A DNA stretch of 64,000 nucleotides from Malachius bipustulatus. Its lineage: Eukaryota; Arthropoda; Insecta; Coleoptera; Melyridae. Position numbers and translations under genes: made by a program. This document shows positions 14,441 to 43,068 of the stretch, in pieces; position 1 is the stretch's first letter; every line of letters starts with the position of its first letter. The notes below the pieces were generated by a model. It searched no databases. It was not told where the DNA came from and was given only the letters and a program-made list of their open reading frames with translations. The stretch spans positions 61,222,598-61,286,597 of the forward strand of contig OU342631.1 in the NCBI GenBank assembly GCA_910589415.1. Direction: 5' to 3'.

Positions 14441-14491
14441 TCTAAATTTAATCCAAAGTTTAAATAGTTTTGATTCTTCCGATATTTTTAT

Positions 14492-14983: not shown

Positions 14984-15012
<29 letters not shown>
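14984..15012. repeat. (TA)n microsatellite between Penelope-like element and element A
   Basis: About 29 bases of alternating A and T. Both neighbouring elements end exactly at it. Confidence 0.95.
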
Positions 15013-15016
<4 letters not shown>

Positions 15017-15039
15017 GTCAGTGCGTTCATTGCTGGACA
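15013..15039 (+). repeat. Element A left terminal inverted repeat
   Basis: It begins TTATGTCAGTGCG and ends TTGCTGGACA, pairing with 26,573-26,599. Mismatches cluster at positions 6-11 of the repeat. Further inward lie three more GCTGGAC copies, one of them in the palindrome GCTGGACGTCCAGC at 15,084-15,097. Confidence 0.7.
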
Positions 15040-15141
15040 AAAATTTATACCTATCCGCTAATTGCTGGACAACCTGCATCATAGCTGGACGTCCAGCAAT
15101 AGACATTCAATATCTATACGTTTATGCGTGCATTGCTGGAC

Positions 15142-15584
15142 GGTGATTATCCCCTCCAAAACCATACATTTTTGCGATGTTGCCGTTACAATTCTGATAG
15201 ATTATTAAGTAGTTTTTAATGTAATTTTATCTTGTTAACAGGAAAGATGGTTAAAGAACTTACTTACATCAGTGAGTTTTAGTCAATTTTCTTCAGAAAT
15301 TGAAATATTATTGATAAAAAAATTTTAAGATATAATAATAGGAATAGGTATAAAAATGATGTTTCACAAAAAAAAAACAATAAGTTGACTTATTTTTTTA
15401 CCCATAATTTCACAGTACCTAGTTAATTATAATTTTATAATATTATACCTATTGTAAATTTTTAAATTCAAAAAAAAGTCAGTAAAATTTAATTTAAATA
15501 AGAAAAAACACTTTTATCATTATTAGGCACTTGTCATCGTTACCTGTTCTTATTATGTGCTCTTCCCAGAATGGGAGAGATAAT
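15142..15584. other. Element A, unique AT-rich stretch before the satellite
   Basis: No gene is recognised. It is AT-rich, with runs such as A9 near 15,370. Confidence 0.5.
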
Positions 15585-18350
15585 ATGAAATAATTTTCTA
15601 TGACAGAGTCCGGCCGATCGCCAAATATTTTTCCAGAATCGGCAATACCTCGCTTGAAAATACCTAATTCCAGGTCTCAAATTACTCGATGACTTCAAAT
15701 CAACTGATTTTTGCAAATTCTGAAAATATTTTTGCGATAGCGCCGAAGATTCCTCCATAAAAAATTATTTCATGATTGCCATCGATTTATAGATGCGCGA
15801 AGCTGCGCAAAGTGGATTTTCGGTTAATTCGAAGTCATCGAGCAACTAGAGCTATGAAATTAGGTATTTAAGACCGCACTGTTGCCAATTCTGTTAATAT
15901 TTTTGCGATCGCGCCGAAGATCCTGTCACAGAAAATTATTTCTAAATTGATGCCGATTGAGATCCACAATGCAGCGCAAAGTGGATTTTCGGTTGATTCG
16001 AAGTCATCGAGCAACTCGCGCCATGAAATTAGGTATTTAGGACTGCACTGTTGCCAATTCCGTTAATATTTTTGCGATCGCGCCGAAGATCCTGTCACGG
16101 AAAATTATTTCAAAATTGATGCTGATTGAGATCCACAATGCAGCGCAAAGTGGATTTTCAATTGATTGAAGTCATCGAGCAACTCGCGCCATGAAATTAG
16201 GTATTAAGGACCGCACCGTTGCCAATTCTGTTAATATTTTTGCGATCGCGCCGAAGATCCTTTCACAGAAAATTATTTCAAAATTGATGCCGATTGAGAT
16301 CCACGATGCAGCGCAAAGTGGATTTTCGGTTGATTCGAAGTCATCGAGCAACTCGCGCCATGAAATTAGGTATTTAGGACCGCCCTGTTGCCAATTCTGT
16401 TAAAATTTTTGCGATCGACCCGAAGATCCAGTCACAGAAAAATTATTTCAAAATTGACGCCGATTGAGATCCACGATGAAGCGCGAAGTGGATTTTCGGT
16501 TGATTCGAAGTCATCGAGCAACTCGCGCCATGAAATTAGGTATTAAGGACCGCACCGTTGCCAATTCTGTTAATATTTTTGCGATCGCGCCGAAGATCCT
16601 TTCACAGAAAATTATTTAAAAATTGATGCCGATTGAGATCCACGATGCAGCGCAAAGTGGATTTTCGGTTGATTCGAAGTCATCGAGCAACTCGCGCCAT
16701 GAAATTATGTATTAAGGACCGCACCGTTGCCAATTCTGTTAATATTTTTGCGATCGACCCGAAGATCCAGTCACAGAAAAATTATTTCAAAATTGATGCC
16801 GATTGAGATCCACGATGCAGCGCAAAGTGGATTTTCAATTTATTTGAAGTCATCGAGCAACTCGCGCTATGAAATTAGGTATTTAAGACCGCACTGTTGC
16901 CAATTCTGTTAATATTTTTGCGATCGACCCGAAGATCCAGTCACAGAAAAATTATTTCAAAATTGATGCCGATTGAGATCCACGATGCAGCGCAAAGTGG
17001 ATTTTTAATTTATTTGAAGTCATCGAGCAACTCGCGCTATGAAATTAGGTATTTAAGACCGCACTGTTGCCAATTCTGTTAATATTTTTGCGATCGCGTC
17101 GAAGATCCTGTCACAGAAAATTATTTCAAAATTGATGCCGATTGAGATCCACGATGCAGCGCAAAGTGGATTTTCGGTTGATTCGAAGTCATCGAGCAAC
17201 TCGCGCCATGAAATTATGTATTAAGGACCGCACCGTTGCCAATTCTGTTAATATTTTTGCGATCGACCCGAAGATCCAGTCACAGAAAAATTATTTCAAA
17301 ATTGATGCCGATTGAGATCCACGATGCAGCGCAAAGTGGATTTTCAATTTATTTGAAGTCATCGAGCAACTCGCGCTATGAAATTAGGTATTTAAGACCG
17401 CACTGTTGCCAATTATGTTAATATTTTTGCGATCGCGCCGAAGATCCTGTCACAGAAAATTATTTCAAAATTGATGCCGATTGAGATCCACGATGCAGCG
17501 CAAAGTGGATTTTCGGTTAATTCGAAGTCATCGAGCAACTCGCGCCATGAAATTAGGTATTTAAGACCGCACTGTTGCCAATTATGTTAATATTTTTGCG
17601 ATCGACCCGAAGATCCAGTCACAGAAAAATTATTTCAAAATTGATGCCGATTGAGATCCACGATGCAGCGCAAAGTGGATTTTCAATTTATTTGAAGTCA
17701 TCGAGCAACTCGCGCTATGAAATTAGGTATTTAAGACCGCACTGTTGCCAATTATGTTAATATTTTTGCGATCGCGCCGAAGATCCTGTCACAGAAAATT
17801 ATTTCAAAATTGATGCCGATTGAGATCCACGATGCAGCGCAAAGTGGATTTTCGGTTGATTCGAAGTCATCGAGCAACTCGCGCCATGAAATTAGTTATT
17901 TAAGACCGCACTGTTGCCAATTATGTTAATATTTTTGCGATCGCGCCGAAGATTCCGCCATAAAAAATGATTTCATTATTGCCACCGATTAGATGCGCGA
18001 ACCTGCGCAAAGTGGATTTTCGGTTAATTTCAAGTCATCGAGTAATTTGAGACGTGGAATTTTGTATTTTAGAGCGCGGTTTTGCCAATTTTCAAAATAT
18101 TTTTGCGATCGCGCCGAAGATTCCGCCATAAAAAATTATTTCGTTATTGCCACCGACTAATTAGATGCTTTTAGAGCGCAGTATTGCCAATTCTGAAAAT
18201 ATTTTTGCGATCGACCCGAAGATCCAGTCACAGAAAATTATTTCAAAATTGATGCCGATTGAGATCCACGATGCAGCGCAAAGTGGATTTTCGGTTAATT
18301 CGAAGTCATCGAGCAACTCGCGCCATGAAATTAGGTATTTAAGACCGCAC

Positions 18351-20238
18351 CCAATAAACAATTTTCATCACTTTAAGTAACAGTCATTTTTTATAAGGGG
18401 TTTATTAGGGTTGCGCGTTTATATTAGAGGTTTATAAAATTACTATTGGTACCCAAGTTATGTAGTGGTTATATAAAATTACTATAAGGCTCCAGACCCA
18501 AAGGTTTTATAAAGTGGTAACGGGAACCTATTCATCACTAGCTTATATAACTTATAGTAATGGTTACTATAGGTTATATAATGCATTTTTATAATAGTTG
18601 CGGTGACCAACTTATAAATCCAATAGTGTCGAGTTCCTGCGTATGTTCAGGTGGTGACACGTATAAAACTAAATCACTTCACAGTAAAATCAGTTACCAT
18701 TATAAAATCCAAGAAGTGCTGTTGGTGTTGAAAATCACTATTATAAAACTTGAATCAGGATAATTTTTCAGGTTAGGTCTTAATCATAAACAACGTTTCA
18801 CTAAACCTATAGCTGTGGAAAAATGGAGACAATAAATAATTGGGAAAAAGTTAAAAATAGAGGTAATAAAACAATAAAGCTTTCTGAACGACACATTTGC
18901 CCTAATGGTATGATGACGACAGAGACATCCATGTTATTTAGGTACCAAAATCTAATCTGTAAAAGTATTAATAATTATTAATTATCAGGCTAATAATTAT
19001 TAATGAAAAATTGTTCTGAAACGAACGCATTATAAACAAAACCAATTCACCAGATCTGGCCACAGGTAAGTGGCGTTGCAGTGGTTGCTTCTACCTTGGG
19101 TGATTATGATGGCTCATAGTAACGAGAGTTACCCTTAGTTATATACCGTCACTTTTAGCAACTGTGAACACCGTAAGTTTTATACCGTCACTTTTAGCAA
19201 CTGTGAACACCGTAAGTTTTATACCGTCACTTTTAGTAACTGTGAACACCGTAAGTTTTATACCGTCACTTTTAGTAACTGTAAACACCGTAAGTTATAT
19301 ACCCCCACTTTTAGTAACTGTGGACACTAACAGATACATAATGGTTCCACAACGGCCTCTGACGTCTTATAGGTACAGCCGCCATATTTTTGATATCTTT
19401 CTGTAGACGCCATGACACAGGGCGGAAGAAAATTTCGAATAAATGAATTAAACAGCAGTGTCATACAGAATAATCGTTCGTATTTCATCAAGGATCGACT
19501 AATGTGTCACTTTACATGTTGTGTTTAAGAAAAATAAATTAGTTTTAGAAACAAGCTAACAAAAAATTACATTTTGAAATTCTAAATTATTTATGATATT
19601 AAGGGCCCTTTAATTATTTAGAGGTACAAATGAAAATCATACAGTCCAAAAAAATTCGCAGTACAATTTTAGTCATTTCGAGTGTCTGATGGCGAATCTC
19701 AATATCAGTTTGTACGTAGATTACGACTAGTAGGTGCGTATACCTTCATACTTCATCTTCGATGCAACAGACGATTTGCCGTTAAGAGGTGTTTGTATTC
19801 TATATGATTGCCTTAGTTTCCCACAAACTTACAAAGAGAAACGTAAAAGATGGTGATAAAGTACAAGAGCAAGCAGGATAACAAATAAACGATGCAGTTG
19901 CCGAAAGGTTGTGGTTACCATTATAAACAAAGTTTATAAAGGTTGTGGAAACATTCTTGTTACTTGATTAAAGACTCATGAGTTCTATAAGGGGTATATA
20001 AGTAGTTATATTAAGGTGGTGGATATGTTTCTATCACCGTTCTTATAAAACTTAAAGTTGTATAAGGTTACCAAACATTAGGTAACGGTAACCCTTATAG
20101 AGTCCGCCATTTAAGCTCTTTAAGGGGTATATAGAGGTAACTGAAACGTTGTCGTCGACCATTTATATTACTGAAAGTTTTATAATTTAGTGATGGTGAT
20201 ATTTCGAGAACCTTTATAAAACAAAAATTGTTTATTGG
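18351..20238. mobile_element. 1.9-kb non-autonomous DNA element inserted in array A
   Basis: The insertion has perfect 15-bp inverted ends (CCAATAAACAATTTT) and is flanked by GCAC on both sides (18,347-18,350 and 20,239-20,242). The satellite reads straight through once it is removed. The interior is full of TTTATAA/TTATAAA motifs on both strands near the ends and a 39-bp tandem repeat in the middle. It has no transposase. The 4-bp duplication could also be read as 3 bp with one more C at each end. The superfamily is not determined. Confidence 0.85.
19145..19340 (+). repeat. 39-bp tandem repeat, five copies
   Basis: ACCGTCACTTTTAG recurs at 19,145, 19,184, 19,223 and 19,262, with a variant at 19,301, an exact 39-base period. 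Because 39 is divisible by three, the repeat gives an open frame with a 13-residue repeat. I do not regard that as a gene. Confidence 0.93.
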
Positions 20239-23200
20239 GCACTGTTGCCAATTATGTTAATATTTTTGCGATCGACCCGAAGATCCAGTCTCAGAAAAAT
20301 TATTTCAAAATTGATGCCGATTGAGATCCACGATGCAGCGCAAAGTGGATTTTCAATTTATTTGAAGTCATCGAGCAACTCGCGCTATGAAATTAGGTAT
20401 TTAAGACCGCACTGTTGCCAATTATGTTAATATTTTTGCGATCGCGCCGAAGATCCTGTCACAGAAAATTATTTCAAAATTGATGCCGATTGAGATCCAC
20501 GATGCAGCGCAAAGTGGATTTTCGGTTGATTCGAAGTCATCGAGCAACTCGTGCCATGAAATTAGGTATTTAGGACTGCACTGTTGCCAATTCCGTTAAT
20601 ATTTTTGCGATCGCGCCGAAGATTCCGCCATAAAAAATGATTTCATTATTGCCACCGATTAGATGCGCGAACCTGCGCAAAGTGGATTTTCGGTTAATTT
20701 CAAGTCATCGAGTAATTTAAGACGTGGAATTTTGTATTTTAGAGCGCGGTTTTGCCAATTTTCAAAATATTTTTGCGATCGCGCCGAAGATTCCGCCATA
20801 AAAAATTATTTCGTTATTGCCACCGACTAATTAGATGCTTTCAGAGCGCAGTATTGCCAATTCTGAAAATATTTTTGCGATCGCGCCGAAGATTCCGCCA
20901 TAAAAAATGATGTCATTATCGTAACCGATTTAAATGCGCGGAGCTGCGCAAAGTGGATTTTCGGTTGATTCGAAGTCATCGAGCACCTCGCACCATGAAA
21001 TTAGGTATTTAGGACCGCACTGTTGCCAATTCTGTTAATATTTTTGCGATCGACCCGAAGATCCAGTCACAGAAAAATTATTTCAAAATTGATGCCGATT
21101 GAGATCCACGATGCAGCGCAAAGTAGATTTTCAATTTATTTGAAGTCATCGAGCAACTCGCGCTATGAAATTAGGTATTTAAGACACAGAAAATTATTTC
21201 AAAATTGATGCCGATTGAGATCCACCATGCAGCGCAAAGTGGATTTTCGGTTGATTCGAAGTCATCGAGCAACTCGCGCCATGAAATTAGGTATTTAGGA
21301 CTGCACTGTTGCCAATTCCGTTAATATTTTTGCGATCGCGCCGAAGATTCCGCCATAAAAAATGATTTCATTATTGCCACCGATTAGATGCGCGAACCTG
21401 CGCAAAGTGGATTTTCGGTTAATTTCAAGTCATCGAGTAATTTGAGATGTGGAATTTTGTATTTTAGAGCGCGGTTTTGCCAATTTTCAAAATATTTTTG
21501 CGATCGCGCCGAAGATTCCGCCATAAAAAATTATTTCGTTATTGCCACCGACTAATTAGATGCTTTTAGAGCGCAGTATTGCCAATTCTGAAAATATTTT
21601 TGCGATCGACCCGAAGATCCAGTCACAGAAAAATTATTTCATAATTGATGCCGATTGAGTTCCACGATGCAGCGCAAAGTGGATTTTCGGTTAATTCGAA
21701 GTCATCGAGCAACTCGCGCTATGAAATTAGGTATTTAAGACCGCACTGTTGCCAATTCTGTTAATATTTTTGCGATCGCGCCGAAGATCCTGTCACAGAA
21801 AATTATTTCTAAATTGATGCCGATTATTGAGATTCACGATGCAGTGCAAAGTGGATTTTCGGTTAATTCGAAGTCATCGAGCAACCAGCGCTATGAAATT
21901 AGGTATTTAAGACCGCACTGTTGCCAATTCTGAAAATATTTTTGCGATCGCGCCGAAGATCCTGTCACAGAAAATTATTTCAAAATTGATGCCGATTGAG
22001 ATCCACGATGCAGCGCAAAGTGGATTTTCGGTTGATTCGAAGTCATCGAGCAACTCGCGCCATGAAATTAGGTATTTAGGACTGCACTGTTGCCAATTCC
22101 GTTAATATTTTTGCGATCGCGCCGAAGATTCCGCCATAAAAAATGATTTCATTATTGCCACCGATTAGATGCGCGAACCTGCGCAAAGTGGATTTTCGGT
22201 TAATTTCAAGTCATCGAGTAATTTGAGATGTGGAATTTTGTATTTTAGAGCGCGGTTTTGCCAATTTTCAAAATATTTTTGCGATCGCGCCGAAGATTCC
22301 GCCATAAAAAATTATTTCGTTATTGCCACCGACTAATTAGATGCTTTTAGAGCGCAGTATTGCCAATTCTGAAAATATTTTTGCGATCGACCCGAAGATC
22401 CAGTCACAGAAAAATTATTTCATAATTGATGCCGATTGAGTTCCACGATGCAGCGCAAAGTGGATTTTCGGTTAATTCGAAGTCATCGAGCAACTCGCGC
22501 TATGAAATTAGGTATTTAAGACCGCACTGTTGCCAATTCTGTTAATATTTTTGCGATCGCGCCGAAGATCCTGTCACAGAAAATTATTTCTAAATTGATG
22601 CCGATTATTGAGATTCACGATGCAGTGCAAAGTGGATTTTCGGTTAATTCGAAGTCATCGAGCAACCAGCGCTATGAAATTAGGTATTTAAGACCGCACT
22701 GTTGCCAATTCTGAAAATATTTTTGCGATCGCGCCGAAGATCCTGTCACAGAAAATTATTTCAAAATTGATGCCGATTGAGATCCACGATGCAGCGCAAA
22801 GTGGATTTTCGGTTAATTCGAAGTCATCGAGCAACTCGCGCCATGAAATTAGGTATTTAAGACCGCACTGTTGCCAATTATGTTAATATTTTTGCGATCG
22901 ACCCGAAGATCCAGTCACAGAAAAATTATTTCAAAATTGATGCCGATTGAGATCCACGATGCAGCGCAAAGTGGATTTTCAATTTATTTGAAGTCATCGA
23001 GCAACTCGCGCTATGAAATTAGGTATTTAAGACCGCACTGTTGCCAATTATGTTAATATTTTTGCGATCGCGCCGAAGATCCTGTCACAGAAAATTATTT
23101 CAAAATTGATGCCGATTGAGATCCACGATGCAGCGCAAAGTGGATTTTCGGTTGATTCGAAGTCATCGAGCAACTCGTGCCATGAAATTAGGTATTTAGG

Positions 23201-25259
23201 ACTGCACTGTTGCCAATTCCGTTAATATTTTTGCGATCGCGCCGAAGATTCCGCCATAAAAAATGATTTCATTATTGCCACCGATTAGATGCGCGAACCT
23301 GCGCAAAGTGGATTTTCGGTTAATTTCAAGTCATCGAGTAATTTGAGACGTGAAATTTTGTATTTTAGAGCGCGGTTTTGCCAATTTTCAAAATATTTTT
23401 GCGATCGCGCCGAAGATTCCGCCATAAAAAATTATTTCGTTATTGCCACCGACTAATTAGATGCTTTTAGAGCGCAGTATTGCCAATTCTGAAAATATTT
23501 TTGCGATCGACCCGAAGACAGTCACAGAAAAATTATTTCATAATTGATGCCGATTGAGATCCACGATGCAGCGCAAAGTGGATTTTCGGTTGATTCGAAG
23601 TCATCGAGCAACTCGCGCTATGAAATTAGGTATTTAAGACCGCACTGTTGCCAATTCTGTTAATATTTTTGCGATCGCGCCGAAGATCCTGTCACAGAAA
23701 ATTATTTCTAAGTTGATGCCGATTATTGAGATTCACGATGCAGCGCAAAGTGGATTTTCGGTTAATTCGAAGTCATCGAGCAACCAGCGCTATGAAATTA
23801 GGTATTTAAGACCGCACTGTTGCCAATTCTGAAAATATTTTTGCGATCGCGCCGAAGATCCTGTCACAGAAAATTATTTCAAAATTGATGCCGATTGAGA
23901 TCCACGATGCAGCGCAAAGTGGATTTTCGGTTAATTCGAAGTCATCGAGCAACTCGCGCCATGAAATTAGGTATTTAAGACCGCACTGTTGCCAATTATG
24001 TTAATATTTTTGCGATCGACCCGAAGATCCAGTCACAGAAAAATTATTTCAAAATTGATGCCGATTGAGATCCACGATGCAGCGCAAAGTGGATTTTCAA
24101 TTTATTTGAAGTCATCGAGCAACTCGCGCTATGAAATTAGGTATTTAAGACCGCACTGTTGCCAATTATGTTAATATTTTTGCGATCGCGCCGAAGATCC
24201 TGTCACAGAAAATTATTTCAAAATTGATGCCGATTGAGATCCACGATGCAGCGCAAAGTGGATTTTCGGTTGATTCGAAGTCATCGAGCAACTCGTGCCA
24301 TGAAATTAGGTATTTAGGACTGCACTGTTGCCAATTCCGTTAATATTTTTGCGATCGCGCCGAAGATTCCGCCATAAAAAATGATTTCATTATTGCCACC
24401 GATTAGATGCGCGAACCTGCGCAAAGTGGATTTTCGGTTAATTTCAAGTCATCGAGTAATTTGAGACGTGAAATTTTGTATTTTAGAGCGCGGTTTTGCC
24501 AATTTTCAAAATATTTTTGCGATCGCGCCGAAGATTCCGCCATAAAAAATTATTTCGTTATTGCCACCGACTAATTAGATGCTTTTAGAGCGCAGTATTG
24601 CCAATTCTGAAAATATTTTTGCGATCGCGCCGAAGATTCCGCCATAAAAAATGATGTCATTATCGTAACCGATTTAAATGCGCGAAGCTGCGCAAAGTGG
24701 ATTTTCGGTTGATTCGAAGTCATCGAGCAACTCGCGCCATGAAATTAGGTATTTAGGACCGCACTGTTGCCAATTCTGTTAATATTTTTGCGATCGACCT
24801 GAAGATCCTGTCACAGAAAATTATTTCAAAATATTGATGCCGATTGAGATCCACGATGCAGCGCAAAGTGGATTTTCGGTTAAATCAAAGTCATCGAGCA
24901 ACTCGCGCTATGAAATTAAGTATTTAAGATCGCACTTTTGCCAATTCTGTTAATCGGCATCAATTTTGAAATATTTTTTGGTGGCAGGATCTTCGGCGCG
25001 ATCGCAAAAATATTAACATAATTGGCAACAGTGCGGTCTTAAATACCTAATTTCATAGCGCGAGTTGCTCGATGACTTCAAATCAACCGAAAATCCACTT
25101 TGCTCAGCTTCGCGCATCTAAATCGGTGGCAATGTTGAAATATTGCCTTTACAAAGAAAACTAATGATGAACTAGAAAAACTTATAATCACAACTGTTTA
25201 GAATAATTGCAGAAATTTAAATTAGGTCATATTATTATTAGGGTTTAGTTTAAATTATA

Positions 25260-25555
25260 CTTTTATTGAACCACTTATTTTGATTAGCAATATTTGAAAA
25301 TTTTTATTGGGATTTAGGTTCTAATTTTAATATGTCACCAAAGATCCTTATTCTAAGGACAAATAAGAAACCTTCGCATAGCATGTCACCAGGTGAAGAC
25401 TGAAGACATGGACGGTACCGTTTCGTCCTTATTATGAACTCATCAGCATGTCACATCAGTCAGACCCACGCTACACATACTGTACGAAAGTTGAAACTTC
25501 TATATATTTAACTGGTCTTTTCTGATGGTGGTGACCTGCAATTTTTAATGAATTA
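25260..25555 (-). repeat. Hammerhead-bearing repeat, left (minus) copy
   Basis: Near-perfect reverse complement of 25,880-26,175, both 296 bp long. Read on the minus strand it begins TAATTCATTAAAAATTGCAG and ends GGTTCAATAAAAG. A third, partial copy of the 3' end lies at about 25,587-25,656 in plus orientation. The inverted pair with about 325 bases between resembles a small Penelope-like or retrozyme-like unit. Confidence 0.85.
25405..25452 (-). ncRNA. Hammerhead ribozyme, minus-strand copy
   Basis: Read on the minus strand this is the same fold as at 25,984-26,031: stem I GACATG/CATGTC, core CTGATGA, stem II GTTC/GGAC (one U-G wobble), GAA, stem III ACGG/CCGT closed by TA, and C at the cleavage position. 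Only one base in stem II differs from the plus copy, and pairing is kept. Confidence 0.85.
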
Positions 25556-25879
25556 GAAGGCAACCAGAGATGCAGGCGTGCAATTAGATCCCAATAAAAA
25601 TTTTCAAATATTGTTGATCAAAATAAGTGGTTCAATAAAAGTATAATTTAAATCTAAAGAGGCCATGGTGAAAAATGAGCCTTTCAACATTTTAATTCGT
25701 GTATTAATTTCTATCTTAATTACACGGTCAAACAATTCCATTATTTTCTAAAATGAATTTAGGTAGGTATACTTATAGGGATCAGTGCATAGTTTCTTGA
25801 AAAACCCTCAGTATAGTATTGTCAAAAATTCACAAATCCGTATACTTAAAATTTTTAACAATTAAAAATTAACTTAAAC

Positions 25880-26175
25880 TAATTCATTAAAAATTGCAGA
25901 TCACTACCATCAGAAATGACCAGTTAAGATATATAGAAGTTTCAACTTTCGTACAGTATGTGTAGCGTGGGTCTGACTGATGTGACATGCTGATGAGTCC
26001 ATAATAAGGACGAAACGGTACCGTCCATGTCTTCAGTCTTCACCTGGTCACATGCTGTGCGAAGGTTTCTTATTTGTCCTTAGAATAAGGATCTTTAGTG
26101 GCATATTAAAATTAGAACCTAAATCCCAATAAAAATTTTCAAATATTGTTAATCAAAATAAGTGGTTCAATAAAA
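25880..26175 (+). repeat. Hammerhead-bearing repeat, right (plus) copy
   Basis: Inverted partner of 25,260-25,555. The 3' end has AATAAAA, which may be a polyadenylation-like signal or chance in AT-rich DNA. There is no coding capacity. Confidence 0.85.
25984..26031 (+). ncRNA. Hammerhead ribozyme (type I topology)
   Basis: All conserved parts are present in order: stem I strand GACATG (25,984-25,989), core CTGATGA (25,990-25,996), stem II GTCC/GGAC with loop ATAATAA, core GAA (26,012-26,014), stem III ACGG/CCGT with a two-base TA loop, cleavage base C at 26,025, and stem I strand CATGTC (26,026-26,031). Stem I extends past an internal loop with GACTGA/TCAGTC, the usual place for tertiary contacts in fast natural hammerheads. 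Self-cleavage between 26,025 and 26,026 is predicted. Similar ribozymes occur in animal retrozymes, SINE-like satellites and Penelope-like repeats. Confidence 0.9.
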
Positions 26176-26503
26176 GGATGCTTTAGATCTTATTAAAGAA
26201 ATATTTTAAATATCTTAAAGAAATAAATTTATCATACATGCAATAAATCATTCGAACAAATAGTTAATAGGTTTACACAGGCCCAAGTCAAAGAAAAAAT
26301 AGTTTTTACTTCTCAAGTTTAACATTTTATCAAATTTATGAGTATTATTATAATGAGTATTATATAAATTATTGAATACTATATTAATTTTCTTTTTAAT
26401 ATTAAGCCACATGTGCACAAATTATGTATGAGTAAGGTTAAATATTATGATTTCCCGAGTTTTTACGAAAAATATCCCACTATGGCAACACTGCAATAAA
26501 TAT
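26176..26503. other. Element A, AT-rich stretch before its right end
   Basis: No gene or clear repeat is visible in this AT-rich segment, which lies between the hammerhead repeat and the GTCCAG-bearing right end. Confidence 0.5.
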
Positions 26504-26572
26504 GTCCAGGAAAACCCGCATAGATGTATGAATTATACGTCCAGCTAAACCCGCTTAAACATATAGAAGGGA

Positions 26573-26595
26573 TGTCCAGCAATAAACGAATCCGC

Positions 26596-26599
<4 letters not shown>
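26573..26599 (-). repeat. Element A right terminal inverted repeat
   Basis: On the minus strand it begins TTATGCGGATTCG and ends TTGCTGGACA. It pairs with 15,013-15,039 and abuts the (TA)n tract at 26,600. Confidence 0.7.

Positions 26600-26663
<64 letters not shown>
26600..26663. repeat. (TA)n microsatellite between elements A and B
   Basis: About 64 bases of TA repeats with a few extra A. Element A ends at its left edge and element B begins at its right edge. Confidence 0.95.
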
Positions 26664-26665
<2 letters not shown>

Positions 26666-26688
26666 TTTTCAACGGGATGATTTGCGGT
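26664..26688 (+). repeat. Element B left terminal inverted repeat
   Basis: It starts CTTTTTCAACGGGATGATTT directly after (TA)n and pairs with 43,020-43,044. Confidence 0.8.
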
Positions 26689-26834
26689 TTTATCCCCACT
26701 CTTATAATGGGTTAAAGAGGACTGCAAAACTGTTTATCTGAGACTGCAAATTGAACAAATTGGGACCGCAAAACATCTTCACCCCCGTAGGGGAAATCAA
26801 ACGGTGATCTACAGTCACAACTAACTGAATATTT

Positions 26835-29800: not shown

Positions 29801-32800
29801 TCAGACCGCACTGTTGCCAATTCTGAATTTTTTTACGATCGCGCAGAAGATCCTGTCAGAAAAATATTTCAAAATTGATGCCAATTGAGATCCACGATGC
29901 AGCGCAAAGTGGATTTTCGGTTGATTGGAAGTCATCGAGCAACTCGCGACATGAAATTATGTATTTAAGACCGCACTGTTGCCAATTCTGTTAATATTTT
30001 TGCGATCGCGCCAAAGATCCTGTCGCAGAAAATTATTTCAAAATTGAAGCCGATTCAGATTCACGATGCAGCGCAAAGTGGATTTTCGGTTGATTTGAAG
30101 TCATCGAGCAACTCGCGACATGAAATTAGGTATTTCAGACCGCACTGTTGCCAATTCTGAATTTTTTTACGATCGCGCAGAAGATCCTGTCACAGAAAAA
30201 TATTTCAAAATTGATGCCAATTGAGATCCACGATGCAGCGCAAAGTGGATTTTCGGTTGATTTGAAGTCATCGAGCAACTCGCGACATGAAATTAGGTAT
30301 TTAAGACTGCACTGTTGCCAATTCTGTTAATATTTTTGCGATCGCGCAGAAGATCCTGTCGCAGAAAATTATTTCAAAATTGAAGCCGATTCAGATTCAC
30401 GATGCAGCGCAAAGTGGATTTTTGGTTGATTTGAAGTCATCGAGCAACTCGCGACAGGAAATTAGGTATTTCAGACCGCACTGTTGCCAATTCTGAATTT
30501 TTTTACGATCGCGCAGAAGATCCTGTCACAGAAAAATATTTCAAAATTGATGCCAATTGAGATCCACGATGCAGCGCAAAGTGGATTTTCGGTTGATTTG
30601 AAGTCATCGAGCAACTCGCGACATGAAATTAGGTATTTCAGACCTATTGTTGCCAATTCTGAATTTTTTTACGATCGCGCAGAAGATCCTGTCACAGAAA
30701 ATTATTTCAAAATTGATGCCGATTCACGTTCATGATGCAGCGCAAAGTGGATTTTCGATTGATTTGATTGAAGTCATCGAGCAACTCGCGACATGAAATT
30801 AGGTATTTAAGACCGCACTGTTGCCAATTCTGAATTTTTTTTACGATCGCGCAGAAGATCCTGTCACAGAAAAATATTTCAAAATTGATGCCGATTGAGA
30901 TCCACGATGCAGCGCAAAGTGGATTTTCGGTTGATTTGAAGTCATCGAGCAACTCGCGACATGAAATTAGGTATTTAAGACCGCACTGTTGCCAATTCTG
31001 TTAATATTTTTGCGATCGCGCCAAAGATCCTGTCGCAGAAAATTATTTCAAAATTGAAGCCGATTCAGATTCTGAATTTTTTTACGATCGCGAGGAAGAT
31101 TCTGTCACAGAAAAATATTTCAAATTTGATGCCAATTGAGATCCACGATGCAGCGCAAAGTGGATTTTCGGTTGATTTGAAGTCATCGAGCAACTCGTGA
31201 CATGAAATTAGGTATTTCAGACCGCACTGTTGCCAATTCTGAATTTTTTTACGATCGCGCAGAAGGTCCTGTCACAGAAAAATATTTCAAAATTGATGCC
31301 AATTGAGATCCACGATGCAGCGCAAAGTGGATTTTCGGTTGATTTGAAGTCATCGAGCAACTCTCGACATGAAATTAGGTATTTCAGACCGCACTGTTGC
31401 CAATTCTGATTTTTTTTTACGATCGCGCAGAAGATCCTGTCAGAAAAATATTTCAAAATTGATGCCAATTGAGATCCACGATGCAGCGCAAAGTGGATTT
31501 TCGGTTGATTGGAAGTCATCGAGCAACTCGCGACATGAAATTATGTATTTAAGACCGCACTGTTGCCAATTCTGTTAATATTTTTGCGATCGCGCCAAAG
31601 ATCCTGTCGCAGAAAATTATTTCAAAATTGAAGCCGATTCAGATTCACGATGCAGCGCAAAGTGGATTTTCGGTTGATTTGAAGTCATCGAGCAACTCGC
31701 GACATGAAATTAGGTATTTCAGACCGCACTGTTGCCAATTCTGAATTTTTTTACGATCGCGCAGAAGATCCTGTCACAGAAAAATATTTCAAAATTGATG
31801 CCAATTGAGATCCACGATGCAGCGCAAAGTGGATTTTCGGTTGATTTGAAGTCATCGAGCAACTCGCGACATGAAATTAGGTATTTAAGACTGCACTGTT
31901 GCCAATTCTGTTAATATTTTTGCGATCGCGCAGAAGATCCTGTCGCAGAAAATTATTTCAAAATTGAAGCCGATTCAGATTCACGATGCAGCGCAAAGTG
32001 GATTTTTGGTTGATTTGAAGTCATCGAGCAACTCGCGACAGGAAATTAGGTATTTCAGACCGCACTGTTGCCAATTCTGAATTTTTTTACGATCGCGCAG
32101 AAGATCCTGTCACAGAAAAATATTTCAAAATTGATGCCAATTGAGATCCACGATGCAGCGCAAAGTGGATTTTCGGTTGATTTGAAGTCATCGAGCAACT
32201 CGCGACATGAAATTAGGTATTTCAGACCTATTGTTGCCAATTCTGAATTTTTTTACGATCGCGCAGAAGATCCTGTCACAGAAAATTATTTCAAAATTGA
32301 TGCCGATTCACGTTCATGATGCAGCGCAAAGTGGATTTTCGATTGATTTGAAGTCATCGAGCAACTCGCGACATGAAATTAGGTATTTAAGACCGCACTG
32401 TTGCCAATTCTGAATTTTTTTTACGATCGCGCAGAAGATCCTGTCACAGAAAAATATTTCAAAATTGATGCCGATTGAGATCCACGATGCAGCGCAAAGT
32501 GGATTTTCGGTTGATTTGAAGTCATCGAGCAACTCGCGACATGAAATTAGGTATTTAAGACCGCACTGTTGCCAATTCTGTTAATATTTTTGCGATCGCG
32601 CCAAAGATCCTGTCGCAGAAAATTATTTCAAAATTGAAGCCGATTCAGATTCACGAAGCTGCGCAAAGTGGATTTTCGGTTGATTTGAAGTCATCGAGCA
32701 ACTCGCGACATGAAATTAGGTATTTAAGACCGCACTGTTGCCAATTCTGTTAATACTTTTGCGATCGCGCCAAAGATCCTGTCGCAGAAAATTATTTCAA

Positions 32801-35800
32801 AATTAATGCCGATTGAGGTCCACGATGCAGCGCAAAGTGGATTTTCGGTTGATTTGAAGTCATCGAGCAACTCGCGACATGAAATTAGGTATTTAAGACT
32901 GCACTGTTGCCAATTCTGTTAATATTTTTGCGATCGCGCAGAAGATCCTGTCGCAGAAAATTATTTCAAAATTAAAGCCGATTCAGATTCACGATGCAGC
33001 GCAAAGTGGATTTTTGGTTGATTTGAAGTCATCGAGCAACTCGCGACAGGAAATTAGGTATTTAAGACCGCACTGTTGCCAATTCTGAATTTTTTTCACG
33101 ATCGCGCAGAAGATCCTGTCACAGAAAAATATTTCAAAATTGATGCCGATTGAGATCCACGATGCAGCGCAAAGTGGATTTTCGGTTGATTTGAAGTCAT
33201 CGAGCAACTCGCGACATGAAATTAGGTATTTAAGACCGCACTGTTGCCAATTCTGTTAATATTTTTGCGATCGCGCCAAAGATCCTGTCGCAGAAAATTA
33301 TTTCAAAATTGAAGCCGATTCAGATTCACGATGCAGCGCAAAGTGGATTTTCGGTTGATTTGAAGTCATCGAGCAACTCGCGACATGAAATTAGGTATTT
33401 CAGACCGCACTGTTGCCAATTCTGAATTTTTTTACGATCGCGCAGAAGATCCTGTCACAGAAAAATATTTCAAAATTGATGCCAATTGAGATCCACGATG
33501 CAGTGCAAAGTGGATTTTCGGTTGATTTGAAGTCATCGAGCAACTCGCGACATGAAATTAGGTATTTAAGACCGCACTGTTGCCAATTCTGTTAATATTT
33601 TTGCGATCGCGCCAAAGATCCTGTCGCAGAAAATTATTTCAAAATTGAAGCCGATTCAGATTCACGATGCAGCGCAAAGTGGATTTTCGGTTGATTTGAA
33701 GTCATCGAGCAACTCGCGACACGAAATTAGGTATTTCAGACCGCAGTGTTGCCAATTCTGAATTTTTTTACGATCGCGCAGAAGATCCTGTCACAGAAAA
33801 ATATTTCAAAATTGATGCCAATTGAGATCCACGATGCAGCGCAAAGTGGATTTTCGGTTGATTTGAAGTCATCGAGCAACTCGCGACATGAAATTAGGTA
33901 TATAAGACCGCACTGTTGCCAATTGTGAATTTTTTTTACGATCGCGAGGAAGATTCTGTCACAGAAAAATATTTCAAAATTGATGCCGATTGAGATCCAC
34001 GATGCAGCGCAAAGTGGATTTTCGGTTGATTTGAAGTCATCGAGCAACTCGCGACATGAAATTAGGTATTTAAGACCGCACTGTTGCCAATTCTGTTAAT
34101 ATTTTTGCGATCGCGCCAAAGATCCTGTCGCAGAAAATTATTTCAAAATTGAAGCCGATTCAGATTCACGATGCAGCGCAAAGTGGATTTTCGGTTGATT
34201 TGAAGTCATCGAGCAACTCGCGACATGAAATTAGGTATTTCAGACCGCACTGTTGCCAATTCTGATTTTTTTTACGATCGCGCAGAAGATCCTGTCACAG
34301 AAAAATATTTCAAAATTGATGCCAATTGAGATCCACGATGCAGCGCAAAGTGGATTTTCGGTTGATTTGAAGTCATCGAGCAACTCGCGACATGAAATTA
34401 GGTATTTAAGACTGCACTGTTGCCAATTCTGTTAATATTTTTGCGATCGCGCAGAAGATCCTGTCGCAGAAAATTATTTCAAAATTGAAGCCGATTCAGA
34501 TTCACGATGCAGCGCAAAGTGGATTTTTGGTTGATTTGAAGTCATCGAGCAACTCGCGACAGGAAATTAGGTATTTCAGACCGCACTGTTGCCAATTCTG
34601 AATTTTTTTACGATCGCGCAGAAGATCCTGTCACAGAAAAATATTTCAAAATTGATGCCAATTGAGATCCACGATGCAGCGCAAAGTGGATTTTCGGTTG
34701 ATTTGAAGTCATCGAGCAACTCGCGACATGAAATTAGGTATTTCAGACCTATTGTTGCCAATTCTGAATTTTTTTACGATCGCGCAGAAGATCCTGTCAC
34801 AGAAAAATATTTCAAAATTGAAGCCAATTGAGATCCACGATGCAGCGCAAAGTGGATTTTCGGTTGATTTGAAGTCATCGAGCAACTCGCGACATGAAAT
34901 TAGGTATTTAAGACTGCACTGTTGCCAATTCTGTTAATATTTTTGCGATCGCGCAGAAGATCCTGTCGCAGAAAATTATTTCAAAATTGAAGCCGATTCA
35001 GATTCACGATGCAGCGCAAAGTGGATTTTCGGTTGATTTGAAGTCATCGAGCAACTCGCGACATGAAATTAGGTATTTAAGACCGCACTGTTGCCAATTC
35101 TGTTAATACTTTTTCGATCGCGCCAAAGATCCTGTCACAGAAAATTATTTCAAAATTGATGTCGATTCAGGTTCATGATGCAGCGCAAAGTGGATTTTCG
35201 ATTGATTTGAAGTCATCGAGCAACTCGCGACATGAAATTAGGTATTTAAGACCGCACTGTTGCCAATTCTGAATTTTTTTTACGATCGCGCAGAAGATCC
35301 TGTCACAGAAAAATATTTCAAAATTGATGCCGATTGAGATCCACGATGCAGCGCAAAGTGGATTTTCAGTTGATTTGAAGTCATCGAGCAACTCGCGACA
35401 TGAAATTAGGTATTTCAGATCGCACTGTTGCCAATTCTGTTAATATTTTTGCGATCGCGCCGAAGATCCTGCTGTCGCAGAAAATTATTTCAAAATTGAA
35501 GCCGATTTAGATTCACGATGCAACGCAAAGTGGATTTTCGATTGATTTGAAGTCATCGAGCAACTCGCGACATGAAATTAGGTATTTAAGACCGCACTGT
35601 TGCCAATTCTGATTTTTTTTTACGATCGCGCAGAAGATCCTGTCAGAAAAATATTTCAAAATTGATGCCAATTGAGATCCACGATGCAGCGCAAAGTGGA
35701 TTTTCGGTTGATTGGAAGTCATCGAGCAACTCGCGACATGAAATTATGTATTTAAGACCGCACTGTTGCCAATTCTGTTAATATTTTTGCGATCGCGCCA

Positions 35801-38800
35801 AAGATCCTGTCACAGAAAATTATTTCAAAACTGATGTCGATTCAGGTTCATGATGCAGCGCAAAGTAGATTTTCGATTGATTTGAAGTCATCGAGCAACT
35901 CGCGACATGAAATAAGGTATTTAAGACCGCACTGTTGCCAATTCTGAAGTTTTTTTACGATCGCGCAGAAGATCCTGGCACAGAAAAATATTTCAAAATT
36001 GATGCCGATTGAGATCCACGATGCAGCGCAAAGTGGATTTTCGGTTGATTTGAAGTCATCGAGCAACTCGCGACATGAAATTAGGTATTTTAGACCGCAC
36101 TGTTGCCAATTCTGTTAATATTTTTGCGATCGCGCCGAAGATCCTGTCGCAGAAAATTATTTCAAAATTGAAGCCGATTTAGATTCACGATGCAGCGCAA
36201 AGTGGATTTTCGATTGATTTGAAGTCATCGAGCAACTTGCACATGAAATTAGGTATTTAAGACCGCACTGTTGCCAATTCTGTTAATATTTTTGCGATCG
36301 CGCCAAAGATCCTGTCGCAAAAAATTATTCCAAAACTGAAGCCGATTCAGATTCACGATGCAGCGCAAAGTGGATTTTCGGTTGATTTGAAATCATCGAG
36401 CAACTCGCGACATGAAATTAGGTATTTCAGATCGCACTGTTGCCAATTCTGTTAATATTTTTGCGATCGCGCCAAAGATCCTGTCGCAGAAAATTATTTC
36501 AAAATTGAAGCCGATTCAGATTCACGATGCAGCGCAAAGTGGATTTTCGGTTGATTTGAAGTCATCGAGCAACTCGCGACATGAAATTAGGTATTTCAGA
36601 CCGCACTGTTGCCAATTCTGAATTTTTTAACGATCGCGCAGAAGATCCTGTCACAGAAAAATATTTCAAAATTGATGCCAATTGAGATCCACGATGCAGC
36701 GCATAGTGGATTTTCGGTTGATTTGAAGTCATCGAGCAACTCGCGACATGAAATTAGGTATTTAAGACCGCACTGTTGCCAATTGTGATTTTTTTTTACG
36801 ATCGCGAGGAAGATTCTGTCACAGAAAATTATTTCAAAATTAATGCCGATTGAGATCCACGATGGCAAAGTGGATTTTCGGTTGATTTGAAGTCATCGAG
36901 CAACTCGCGACATGAAAGTAGGTATTTAAGACTGCACTGTTGCCAATTCTGTTAATATTTTTGCGATCGCGCCAAAGATCCTGTCGCAGAAAATTTTTCC
37001 AAATTGAAGCCGATTCAGATTCACGATGCAGCGCAAAGTGGATTTTCGGTTGATTTGAAGTCATCGAGCAACTCGCGACATGAAATTAGGTATTTCAGAC
37101 CGCACTGTTGCCAATTCTGAATTTTTTTACGATCGCGCAGAAGATCCTGTCACAGAAAAATATTTCAAAATTGATGCCAATTGAGATCCACGATGCAGCG
37201 CAAAGTGGATTTTCGGTTGATTTGAAGTCATCGAGCAACTCGCGACATGAAATTAGGTATTTAAGACCGCACTGTTGCCAATTCTGTTAATATTTTTGCG
37301 ATCGCGCCAAAGATCCTGTCGCAGAAAATTATTTCAAAATTGAAGCCGATTCAGATTCTGAATTTTTTTACGATCGCGAGGAAGATTCTGTCACAGAAAA
37401 ATATTTCAAATTTGATGCCAATTGAGATCCACGATGCAGCGCAAAGTGGATTTTCGGTTGATTTGAAGTCATCGAGCAACTCGTGACATGAAATTAGGTA
37501 TTTCAGACCGCACTGTTGCCAATTCTGAATTTTTTTACGATCGCGCAGAAGGTCCTGTCACAGAAAAATATTTCAAAATTGATGCCAATTGAGATCCACG
37601 ATGCAGCGCAAAGTGGATTTTCGGTTGATTTGAAGTCATCGAGCAACTCTCGACATGAAATTAGGTATTTCAGACCGCACTGTTGCCAATTCTGATTTTT
37701 TTTACGATCGCGCAGAAGATCCTGTCAGAAAAATATTTCAAAATTGATGCCAATTGAGATCCACGATGCAGCGCAAAGTGGATTTTCGGTTGATTGGAAG
37801 TCATCGAGCAACTCGCGACATGAAATTATGTATTTAAGACCGCACTGTTGCCAATTCTGTTAATATTTTTGCGATCGCGCCAAAGATCCTGTCGCAGAAA
37901 ATTATTTCAAAATTGAAGCCGATTCAGATTCACGATGCAGCGCAAAGTGGATTTTCGGTTGATTTGAAGTCATCGAGCAACTCGCGACATGAAATTAGGT
38001 ATTTCAGACCGCACTGTTGCCAATTCTGAATTTTTTTACGATCGCGCAGAAGATCCTGTCACAGAAAAATATTTCAAAATTGATGCCAATTGAGATCCAC
38101 GATGCAGCGCAAAGTGGATTTTCGGTTGATTTGAAGTCATCGAGCAACTCGCGACATGAAATTAGGTATTTAAGACTGCACTGTTGCCAATTCTGTTAAT
38201 ATTTTTGCGATCGCGCAGAAGATCCTGTCGCAGAAAATTATTTCAAAATTGAAGCCGATTCAGATTCACGATGCAGCGCAAAGTGGATTTTCGGTTGATT
38301 TGAAGTCATCGAGCAACTCGCGACAGGAAATTAGGTATTTCAGACCGCACTGTTGCCAATTCTGAATTTTTTTACGATCGCGCAGAAGATCCTGTCACAG
38401 AAAAATATTTCAAAATTGATGCCAATTGAGATCCACGATGCAGCGCAAAGTGGATTTTCGGTTGATTTGAAGTCATCGAGCAACTCGCGACATGAAATTA
38501 GGTATTTAAGACTGCACTGTTGCCAATTCTGTTAATATTTTTGCGATCGCGCAGAAGATCCTGTCGCAGAAAATTATTTCAAAATTGAAGCCGATTCAGA
38601 TTCACGATGCAGCGCAAAGTGGATTTTTGGTTGATTTGAAGTCATCGAGCAACTCGCGACAGGAAATTAGGTATTTCAGACCGCACTGTTGCCAATTCTG
38701 AATTTTTTTACGATCGCGCAGAAGATCCTGTCACAGAAAAATATTTCAAAATTGATGCCAATTGAGATCCACGATGCAGCGCAAAGTGGATTTTCGGTTG

Positions 38801-41800
38801 ATTTGAAGTCATCGAGCAACTCGCGACATGAAATTAGGTATTTCAGACCTATTGTTGCCAATTCTGAATTTTTTTACGATCGCGCAGAAGATCCTGTCAC
38901 AGAAAATTATTTCAAAATTGATGCCGATTCACGTTCATGATGCAGCGCAAAGTGGATTTTCGATTGATTTGAAGTCATCGAGCAACTCGCGACATGAAAT
39001 TAGGTATTTAAGACCGCACTGTTGCCAATTCTGAATTTTTTTACGATCGCGCAGAAGATCCTGTCACAGAAAAATATTTCAAAATTGATGCCAATTGAGA
39101 TCCACGATGCAGCGCAAAGTGGATTTTCGGTTGATTTGAAGTCATCGAGCAACTCGCGACATGAAATTAGGTATTTAAGACTGCACTGTTGCCAATTCTG
39201 TTAATATTTTTGCGATCGCGCAGAAGATCCTGTCGCAGAAAATTATTTCAAAATTGAAGCCGATTCAGATTCACGATGCAGCGCAAAGTGGATTTTTGGT
39301 TGATTTGAAGTCATCGAGCAACTCGCGACAGGAAATTAGGTATTTAAGACCGCACTGTTGCCAATTCTGAATTTTTTTACGATCGCGCAGAAGATCCTGT
39401 CACAGAAAAATATTTCAAAATTGATGCCGATTGAGATCCACGATGCAGCGCAAAGTGGATTTTCGGTTGATTTGAAGTCATCGAGCAACTCGCGACATGA
39501 AATTAGGTATTTAAGACCGCACTGTTGCCAATTCTGTTAATATTTTTGCGATCGCGCAGAAGATCCTGTCACAGAAAAATATTTCAAAATTGATGCCAAT
39601 TGAGGTCCACGATGCAGCGCAAAGTGGATTTTCGGTTGATTTGAAGTCATCGAGCAACTCGCGACATGAAATTAGGTATTTAAGACTGCACTGTTGCCAA
39701 TTCTGTTAATATTTTTGCGATCGCGCAGAAGATCCTGTCGCAGAAAATTATTTCAAAATTGAAGCCGATTCAGATTCACGATGCAGCGCAAAGTGGATTT
39801 TCGGTTGATTTGAAGTCATCGAGCAACTCGCGACATGAAATTAGGTATTTAAGACTGCACTGTTGCCAATTCTGTTAATATTTTTGCGATCGCGCAGAAG
39901 ATCCTGTCGCAGAAAATTATTTCAAAATTGAAGCCGATTCAGATTCACGATGCAGCGCAAAGTGGATTTTTGGTTGATTTGAAGTCATCGAGCAACTCGC
40001 GACAGGAAATTAGGTATTTCAGACCGCACTGTTGCCAATTCTGAATTTTTTTACGATCGCGCAGAAGATCCTGTCACAGAAAAATATTTCAAAATTGATG
40101 CCAATTGAGATCCACGATGCAGCGCAAAGTGGATTTTCGGTTGATTTGAAGTCATCGAGCAACTCGCGACATGAAATTAGGTATTTCAGACCTATTGTTG
40201 CCAATTCTGAATTTTTTTACGATCGCGCAGAAGATCCTGTCACAGAGAATTATTTCAAAATTGATGCCGATTCACGTTCATGATGCAGCGCAAAGTGGAT
40301 TTTCGGTTGATTTGAAGTCATCGAGCAACTCGCGACATGAAATTAGGTATTTCAGACCGCACTGTTGCCAATTCTGAATTTTTTTACGATCGCGCAGAAG
40401 ATCCTGTCACAGAAAAATATTTCAAAATTGATGCCAATTGAGATCCACGATGCAGCGCAAAGTGGATTTTCGGTTGATTTGAAGTCATCGAGCAACTCGC
40501 GACATGAAATTAGGTATTTAAGACTGCACTGTTGCCAATTCTGTTAATATTTTTGCGATCGCGCAGAAGATCCTGTCGCAGAAAATTATTTCAAAATTGA
40601 AGCCGATTCAGATTCACGATGCAGCGCAAAGTGGATTTTTGGTTGATTTGAAGTCATCGAGCAACTCGCGACAGGAAATTAGGTATTTCAGACCGCACTG
40701 TTGCCAATTCTGAATTTTTTTACGATCGCGCAGAAGATCCTGTCACAGAAAAATATTTCAAAATTGATGCCAATTGAGATCCACGATGCAGCGCAAAGTG
40801 GATTTTCGGTTGATTTGAAGTCATCGAGCAACTCGCGACATGAAATTAGGTATTTCAGACCTATTGTTGCCAATTCTGAATTTTTTTACGATCGCGCAGA
40901 AGATCCTGTCACAGAAAATTATTTCAAAATTGATGCCGATTCACGTTCATGATGCAGCGCAAAGTGGATTTTCGATTGATTTGAAGTCATCGAGCAACTC
41001 GCGACATGAAATTAGGTATTTAAGACCGCACTGTTGCCAATTCTGAATTTTTTTTACGATCGCGCAGAAGATCCTGTCACAGAAAAATATTTCAAAATTG
41101 ATGCCGATTGAGATCCACGATGCAGCGCAAAGTGGATTTTCGGTTGATTTGAAGTCATCGAGCAACTCGCGACATGAAATTAGGTATTTAAGACCGCACT
41201 GTTGCCAATTCTGAATTTTTTTACGATCGCGCAGAAGATCCTGTCACAGAAAAATATTTCAAAATTGATGCCAATTGAGATCCACGATGCAGTGCAAAGT
41301 GGATTTTCGGTTGATTTGAAGTCATCGAGCAACTCGCGACATGAAATTAGGTATTTAAGACCGCACTGTTGCCAATTGTGAATTTTTTTTACGATCGCGA
41401 GGAAGATTCTGTCACAGAAAATTATTTCAAAATTAATGCCGATTGAGATCCACGATGCAGCGCAAAGTGGATTTTCGGTTGATTTGAAGTCATCGAGCAA
41501 CTCGCGACATGAAATTAGGTATTTAAGGCTGCACTGTTGCCAATTCTGTTAATATTTTTGCGATCGCGCCAAAGATCCTGTCGCAGAAAATTATTTCAAA
41601 ATTGAAGCCGATTCAGATTCTGAATTTTTTTACGATCGCGAGGAAGATTCTGTCACAGAAAAATCTTTCAAATTTGATGCCAATTGAGATCCACGATGCA
41701 GCGCAAAGTGGATTTTCGGTTGATTTGAAGTCATCGAGCAACTCGTGACATGAAATTAGGTATTTCAGACCGCACTGTTGCCAATTCTGTTAATATTTTT

Positions 41801-42739
41801 GCGATCGCGCCAAAGATCCTGTCGCAGAAAATTATTTCAAAATTGAAGCCGATTCAGATTCACGATGCAGCGCAAAGTGGATTTTCGGTTGATTTGAAGT
41901 CATCGAGCAACTCGCGACACGAAATTAGGTATTTAAGACCGCACTGTTGCCAATTCTGTTAATATTTTTGCGATCGCGCCAAAGATCCTGTCGCAGAAAA
42001 TTATTTCAAAATTGAAGCCGATTCAGATTCACGATGTAGCGCAAAGTGGATTTTTGGTTGATTTGAAGTCATCGAGCAACTCGCGACAGGAAATTAGATA
42101 TTTAAGACCGCACTGTTGCCAATTCTGTTAATATTTTTGCGATCGCGCAGAAGATCCTGTCGCAGAAAATTATTTCAAAATTGAAGCCGATTCAGATTCA
42201 CGATGCAAGGCAAAGTGGATTTTCGATTGATTTGAAGTCATCGAGCAGCTCGCGACATGAAATTAGGTATTTAAAACCGCACTGTTGTCAATTCTGATTT
42301 TTTTTACGATCGCGCAGAAGATTCTGTCACAGAAAATTATTTCAAAATTAATGCCGATTGAGATCCACTATGCAGCGCAAAGTGGATTTTCGGTTGATTT
42401 GAAGTCATCGAGCAACTCGCGACATGAAATTAGGTATTTAAGACCGCACTGTTGCCAATTCTGTTAATACTTTTGCGATCGCGCCAAAGATCCTGTCGCA
42501 GAAAATTATTTCAAAATTAATGCCGATTGAGATACACGATGCAGCGCAAAGTGGATTTTCGGTTGATTTGAAGTCATCGAGCAACTCGCGACATGAAATT
42601 AGGTATTTAAGACCGCACTGTTGCCAATTCTGAAAATATTTTTGCGATCGCGCCGAAGATCCTGTCGCAGAAAATTATTTCAAAATTGATGCCGATTGAG
42701 ATCCACTATGCAGCGCAAAGTGGATTTTCGGTTGATTTA
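26835..42739 (+). repeat. Satellite array B, about 168-bp monomers with dimeric higher order
   Basis: About 94 monomers. In much of the array two types alternate. One has CTGAATTTTTTTACGATCGCGC with GATGCCAATTGAGATCC. The other has CTGTTAATATTTTTGCGATCGC with GAAGCCGATTCAGATTC. This gives a dimeric period near 336 bp (type-1 starts at 38,017, 38,353, 38,689, 39,022 and 39,358). Blocks of several monomers are copied over longer distances, for example around 28,315-29,362 and 35,848-37,064. All units keep a CGATCGCG core. Junctions such as GATTCAGATTCTGAATTTTTTT (near 29,650, 31,070, 37,350 and 41,615) mark a repeated internal deletion. Recurrent 60-100-codon frames are monomer translations. 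Confidence 0.97.
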
Positions 42740-43019
42740 AGAATAAGCATAAAATTGTGCAACTTAATATCTAATTTAACCGATTTCGTATCTCCAACCG
42801 CTTCCAAGTAAATTAAAGTTTCTTATACAGTTACTGTCTTCATAACGTGTAACGGTTACTAATTTCCCCTCCATCCCCTCCACTTTATCAAGGACCTCAC
42901 ATCATCCTTAATAAGAATATATTAACTGCAAACAGTTTTTGAGGTCCGACCGCAAAAGCTCTATTTGCGACCGCAAAAGCAGTTTGGACTGCAAAGCATC
43001 CCTTCGGAGTAAATAAAAG
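42740..43019. other. Element B, unique right flank of the satellite
   Basis: A non-satellite AT-rich stretch followed by several GACYGCAAA motifs approaching the right terminal repeat. No gene is seen. Confidence 0.6.
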
Positions 43020-43044
43020 ACCGCAAATCATCCCGTTAAGAAAG
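43020..43044 (-). repeat. Element B right terminal inverted repeat
   Basis: On the minus strand it starts CTTTCTTAACGGGATGATTT. It pairs with 26,664-26,688 with two mismatches and is followed directly by (AT)n. Confidence 0.8.
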
Positions 43045-43068
43045 ATATATATATATATATATATATAT
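43045..43068. repeat. (TA)n microsatellite right of element B
   Basis: About 24 bases of AT repeats. The right shell of the gag insert begins immediately after, at CGTGGGCAGG. Confidence 0.95.

Follow-up and report, generated by a model that had tools for sequence, protein, structure and literature searches.

Satellite DNA as probable cargo of two unrelated terminal-inverted-repeat element families in TA repeats of the beetle Malachius bipustulatus

The presence of one satellite on many chromosomes has long called for an explanation, and the case for transposition has been built mostly on short arrays in Helentrons and in miniature inverted-repeat transposable elements (MITEs). Among the latter is miDNA4 of Xenopus, reportedly described by Scalvenzi and Pollet in 2014. 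As recounted in a review (PMC12628747), it is a non-autonomous element with terminal inverted repeats (TIRs) around a central satellite array, which is variable in copy number and thought to have been captured from an existing repeat. Other TIR elements—SaTar of guayule and rice (PMC5907723), Micron of rice and MuTAnT of Medicago (PMC4486113)—lie mainly in (TA)n microsatellites; by these accounts, elements of the SaTar/MuTAnT type depend on a Mutator-like transposase and make 9–10-bp duplications at non-TA sites. Here we consider two neighboring elements, A and B, in a 64,000-nucleotide stretch (the window) of contig OU342631.1 of the beetle Malachius bipustulatus, corresponding to C2:61222598-61286597 of a 544-Mb, 52-contig assembly, to which all genome-wide counts below refer. 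Of the 120 relatives listed for its histone H1, the minority that carry an organism name come from beetles and one hemipteran. We put at roughly 0.86 the probability that A and B belong, as non-autonomous elements, to two unrelated TIR DNA transposon families that have one satellite family as their core.

Each element is bounded by inverted repeats at the edges of TA tracts. Those of B (26660–26688, + strand, the first four bases overlapping the TA tract; and 43020–43048, − strand) agree at 27 of 29 positions, where the next best opposite-strand 29-mer in the window reaches 20; those of A (15011–15039, +; and 26573–26601, −) agree at 23 of 29 at the TA border, against 19 for the next best. The tracts themselves are (TA)13 at 14986–15011 on the left border of A, a (TA)n tract with one two-base interruption between A and B (26601–26662), and (TA)11 at 43046–43067 on the right border of B, and they are the only places in the window with at least six perfect consecutive TA units. 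Beyond the satellite, the ends of A and the ends of B have nothing in common. A sequence-only reading of the window had proposed TIRs on both elements, unrelated between the two, together with (TA)n on all three borders and a shared satellite, and each of these observations has held.

The same ends recur across the genome in an orderly fashion. A 27-base pattern of the B TIR is found at 24 sites, all without mismatch (control, 0), which resolve into 11 inverted left/right pairs of 9,970–34,458 bp on seven contigs (C1, C2, C3, C4, C6, C16, and C22) and two single ends (C6:10186751 and C17:14913446). When the TIR is preceded by TATATATATAT, all 24 sites are recovered, 19 perfectly and five with one mismatch in the eleven added bases; TA repeats adjoin every one of the 24 B ends, and no copy off TA occurs among them. 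The A TIR pattern, allowed up to three mismatches, gives 11 sites (control, 0), made up of five inverted left/right pairs—11,591, 12,734, 23,130, 25,849, and 51,899 bp in span—and a single right end on C16, while the first 288 bases of A are matched at five genome places at 97–100%. All four A ends that were read, the window pair and the C17 pair, stand against TA-rich tracts, the tract at the start of the C17 copy being impure. Spans vary 5.2-fold across the 16 A and B pairs, and no short copies were seen among these pairs. Two of the three outcomes named beforehand as fatal to the proposal were TIRs that occur only once and TIRs without paired inverted ends; the genome shows neither, the three single ends apart, and the siting in (TA)n recurs away from the window.

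Over their first 100 bases the two ends of B align locally with a score of 47 versus a shuffle maximum of 27, and so are separated from shuffles; those of A score 29 versus a maximum of 30 and are not, for which reason the case for A rests on the fixed register of its TIRs and on its genome copies. The left TIR of A is iterated, with a TIR-like repeat 32 bp further inward at 15043 (22/29) and another at 15114 (21/29), and seven of the nine window sites of GCTGGAC, the subterminal motif of A and the core motif of this TIR, lie in the two ends of A, mostly mirrored. The corresponding motif of B, GACYGCAAA, occurs three times on the left (26720–26772) and four times on the right, where it accompanies the unique part at 42740–43019 (+) and its outermost copy falls within the TIR. 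All seven copies are on the + strand, so the subterminal parts of B are not mirror images, which corrects the mirrored plan once ascribed to both elements. The right end of A further contains inverted 257-nt arms (25251–26185) with type I hammerhead-like motifs at 25405–25452 (−) and 25984–26031 (+). These score 31.8 and 28.5 bits against an Rfam cut-off of 34, and appear only at a laxer threshold, Rfam at gathering thresholds giving no matches in the window; on C17, the A copy carries a single arm of this kind (L020:2233-2547). Carriage of hammerheads is frequent among Penelope-like elements.

A profile search of the window (E 1e-5) returned 145 satellite matches, every one inside A or B; the 131 nearly full-length monomers (39 in A, 92 in B) were compared and 14 shorter matches dropped. 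The B array (26855–42738, +) keeps one orientation throughout. In A, the main array (15712–24936, +) is accompanied only by short inverted pieces at its ends, namely a diverged monomer at the left junction (15583–15707, −) and inverted satellite on the right (24952–25144, −). The satellite core originally described for both elements is thus present in each, but A also holds the hammerhead-like arms and, within its array, a nested 1.9-kb TIR element with GCAC on each side, seen directly at 18353–20238. Mean monomer distance is 0.109 in A and 0.059 in B, compared with 0.114 from one element to the other; the nearest neighbor lies in the same element for all 131 monomers, and the 92 B monomers form one clade (support 0.92) nested in the diversity of A. 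The longest exact repeats measure 883 bp within A and 940 bp within B, against 74 bp between the two. Private monomers and long exact repeats within each element are signs that the arrays were amplified locally, and they tell against any recent exchange from one neighboring array to the other. The idea that the satellite derives from the end sequences of A or B was considered and rejected, there being no alignment beyond the array junctions.

Across the assembly an exact 23-base satellite word occurs 1,078 times (control, 0); the window accounts for 81 of these occurrences (19 in A, 62 in B). Viral contigs scanned with a satellite word and with the B TIR gave no matches. The first 100 of the genome-wide locations, the ones listed, all lie on C1, where 51 fill one B pair and 43 a second, and six fall at two places outside the pairs found. 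In both C1 pairs the orientation of the satellite follows that of the element, as it does in the window. A 38-base pattern spanning the right satellite/end junction of the window's B copy recurs at four of the 12 B right ends, in every case 326 bp away from the outer TIR end: in the window itself on C2, on C4, at 6.99 Mb on C6, and at the single end on C17. At the C1 copies the spacing is 374 bp instead of 335 bp, and there are therefore at least two junction types. All told, two of five A pairs and five of 11 B pairs showed satellite, either inside the pair or at its end; beyond the window this amounts to one more A copy and two more B copies with satellite, and to the right-end junction at two further B pairs and one single B end.

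The further A copy (C17, 1,813–53,711) is TA-flanked on both sides. It was reached through four sampled stretches, one of which proved to be satellite throughout; 15 other sampled stretches (150 kb) contained none. Its right-type end is 94.0% identical to that of the window over 801 aligned positions and its left-type end 94.5% over 586. Satellite runs throughout 2,555–29,963, is present in 400-base probes at 40,001 and 50,001, and extends from 50,401 to ~53,140, the reading of this core leaving out 30,001–40,000 and 40,401–50,000 (19.6 kb). Agreement with the window covers the left end, the inverted monomer, and the strand switch over ~830 bp; from there on the arrays differ. With 161 of the 162 C17 matches added to the monomer comparison, for a total of 292, 289 monomers are nearest to their own array, one is a tie, and two are nearest to the other A copy. 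Private monomers, with spans that vary 5.2-fold, show local remodeling of the arrays once they have arrived; copies keep their ends yet differ in monomers and in length. The earlier suggestion that arrays are mobilized whole is upheld only for the satellite joined to the ends; beyond the ends, the arrays have been rebuilt locally.

Several observations weigh against reading A and B as transposons that carry satellite. Among the matches listed, C1:4893495-4894105 and C1:73969544 onward hold satellite in no A or B pair found, and transposition is therefore not shown as the only route. The right-end junction is present at four of 12 ends, not all, with the C1 copies spaced otherwise, and the cores examined come from only seven of the 16 pairs. 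No target duplication is discernible in (TA)n, since with TA repeat on both borders a duplication is indistinguishable from the target. An autonomous relative did not come to light, nor did a transposase, for which the genome was not searched, and all borders are known from assembly sequence alone rather than from reads. In the two A copies read, the long array runs in opposite directions relative to the element. Finally, the left flank of the C17 copy, the only further copy with flanks read, resembles the left flank of the window at 86% over 589 bp.

This last resemblance, along with the start of the C17 copy 1.8 kb from the start of its contig, is what can be said for the strongest rival, in which satellite-rich blocks were duplicated segmentally through ectopic recombination, with TA tracts or satellite arrays as its possible substrates and the TIRs as passengers. 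We regard it as unlikely. The A ends of the two copies, at 94–94.5%, are closer than the flank; the flank sequence shared with C17 is repetitive in the window; and the other flank, on the right, matches the window in nothing but the TA tract at the border. Moreover, the repeated units have inverted TIRs at (TA)n as their limits, which for B is seen in 11 pairs on seven contigs.

Far less credible is the proposal that the A and B ends were inserted independently, into satellite arrays that already existed or next to them, and have merely the look of one element. The nested element in the A array shows that insertion into an array does occur, and satellite is also found outside the pairs; but the ends form 16 inverted left/right pairs, the window satellite lies inside and not outside these pairs, and the junctions recur at unlinked places. 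A variant with a single array cut apart by separate insertions was rejected on the strength of the genome-wide pairing of A and B ends. Equally remote are Helentron-like rolling-circle elements (HINEs), known carriers of short satellite arrays, which in the oyster Cg_HINE likewise have conserved ends around a central array, but which, according to PMC7492417, carry subterminal repeats and a 3' palindrome, insert at oligo-T sites, and do not duplicate their target. In A and B the inverted repeats stand at the outermost edges, and docking is in (TA)n.

On the sequence evidence, then, the paired, oriented, multi-copy ends, the TA docking of B, and the shared end/satellite junctions are best explained by transposition of satellite-containing elements. 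In such a scheme the TIRs and the iterated subterminal motifs would serve as binding sites for a transposase supplied from outside the element, which would place the whole element in (TA)n. By likeness to SaTar and MuTAnT, this enzyme could be Mutator-like. Movement would be by cut and paste, possibly with many monomers per transfer, and we can only infer the order of events. The arrangement suggests that, because a TA tract is left on each side, a tract with one element could take another beside it, giving an end-to-end string. After arrival, arrays would grow, shrink, and homogenize locally.

A broader proposition, which we put at even odds, casts the satellite as a hitchhiker: at least two unrelated TIR families would have taken up one satellite as multi-kilobase cargo and laid it down in (TA)n stacks, such that most dispersed arrays were placed by transposition and owe their length and sequence to local regrowth. 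The first account of the locus had offered transposition as the explanation for the spread of the satellite, and paired copies at many loci, seven of them with satellite in the pair or at its end, sustain it; the two C1 places outside the pairs found may not fall under it. Carriage exclusively by A and B was rejected on account of these two places, which may themselves be free arrays, remnants, or the work of a third carrier. Since the 27-base B ends are mismatch-free at 24 of 24 sites, the spread may be recent enough for insertion differences between individuals.

The chain of TA tracts extends to the left of A. A Penelope-like element (PLE; 12153–14984, +), in which open reading frames (ORFs) for reverse transcriptase (RT) and a GIY-YIG domain lie between 493-nt inverted repeats that are 100% complementary, is followed by (TA)13 and preceded by an imperfect TA tract (12089–12118), so the modules read TA-PLE-TA-A-TA-B-TA. 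In the window, the PLE, which is not a TIR element, and A and B thus sit on one TA chain, none interrupting another. The RT and GIY-YIG parts (12638–14440) share a single frame with a stop codon between them. Another PLE, in two regularly spaced copies, occupies C11:1-10000 on a small contig, its RT being ~43% identical to that of the window.

Other repeats surround the locus. A 1,433-bp direct repeat, 99.86% identical, flanks it at 8368–9800 and 51464–52896. Left of the chain, 238-bp exact direct repeats lie 335 bp apart (7795–8032 and 8130–8367); the same family also flanks the C17 A copy (L020:1-1762) and may be another module ending at TA. A 146-bp exact match to window 57839–57984, ~26 kb beyond the right border of the C17 copy, is probably a dispersed repeat. 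To the right, a Ty3/gypsy-like coding region (43069–47702) starts near the TA tract of B, and no direct repeats resembling long terminal repeats were found for it in window 42700–50500. The ORF at 49144–50451 (435 codons) has no detectable relatives and no Pfam family, and a 91-bp minisatellite of about four copies (55756–56122) overlaps the end of an integrase ORF. No ORF of at least 150 codons lies wholly inside the window copies of A or B, although one crosses the right border of B.

Set beside described systems, A and B share features with several. The foldback element Tetris of Drosophila virilis (PMC4079207) is alike in that internal tandem repeats seeded longer satellite arrays and that an autonomous copy is unknown; it differs in having its repeats within long TIRs, target duplications of 8–10 bp, three structurally complete copies, and long arrays mostly outside the element. 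In the window, neither A nor B has tandem repeats in both of two long TIRs. Cg_HINE of the Pacific oyster (PMC7492417) offers satellite-like arrays dispersed as the center of a mobile element, with repeats also related to a classical satellite, but belongs to the rolling-circle class, with short arrays, no terminal inverted repeats, and oligo-T sites, as far as that account goes. The Helentron/HINE combination of TIR-less ends, subterminal repeats, 3' palindrome, and oligo-T target is seen in neither A nor B. Closer is miDNA4, with which A and B have in common conserved ends that enclose a central array of varying length (in the seven of 16 cores examined). As the review portrays it, miDNA4 belongs to the Tc1/mariner MITEs and has a single set of ends, in contrast to two unrelated sets of ends with one satellite, elements of 10–52 kb, and docking in TA tracts. 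At this size, and with their paired ends intact, the elements lend themselves to counting and alignment, and two unrelated families carry the same cargo.

The nearest likeness in siting is to SaTar, Micron, and MuTAnT. Like them, A and B are flanked by (TA)n, and unrelated elements are stacked end to end with TA between and no interruption. The plant elements are described as ~0.2–1.7 kb long (~5 kb where autonomous) with Mutator-like partners, against 9.97–51.9 kb for A and B, and a satellite core is not mentioned for elements of the SaTar/MuTAnT type in the excerpts of PMC5907723 and PMC4486113. Searches of open-access papers brought up no account of giant TIR elements that have satellite cores and sit in (TA)n, a scope that makes this weak evidence of novelty. 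To the TA docking and the end-to-end stacking that these accounts describe in plants, A and B add a counterpart in an animal.

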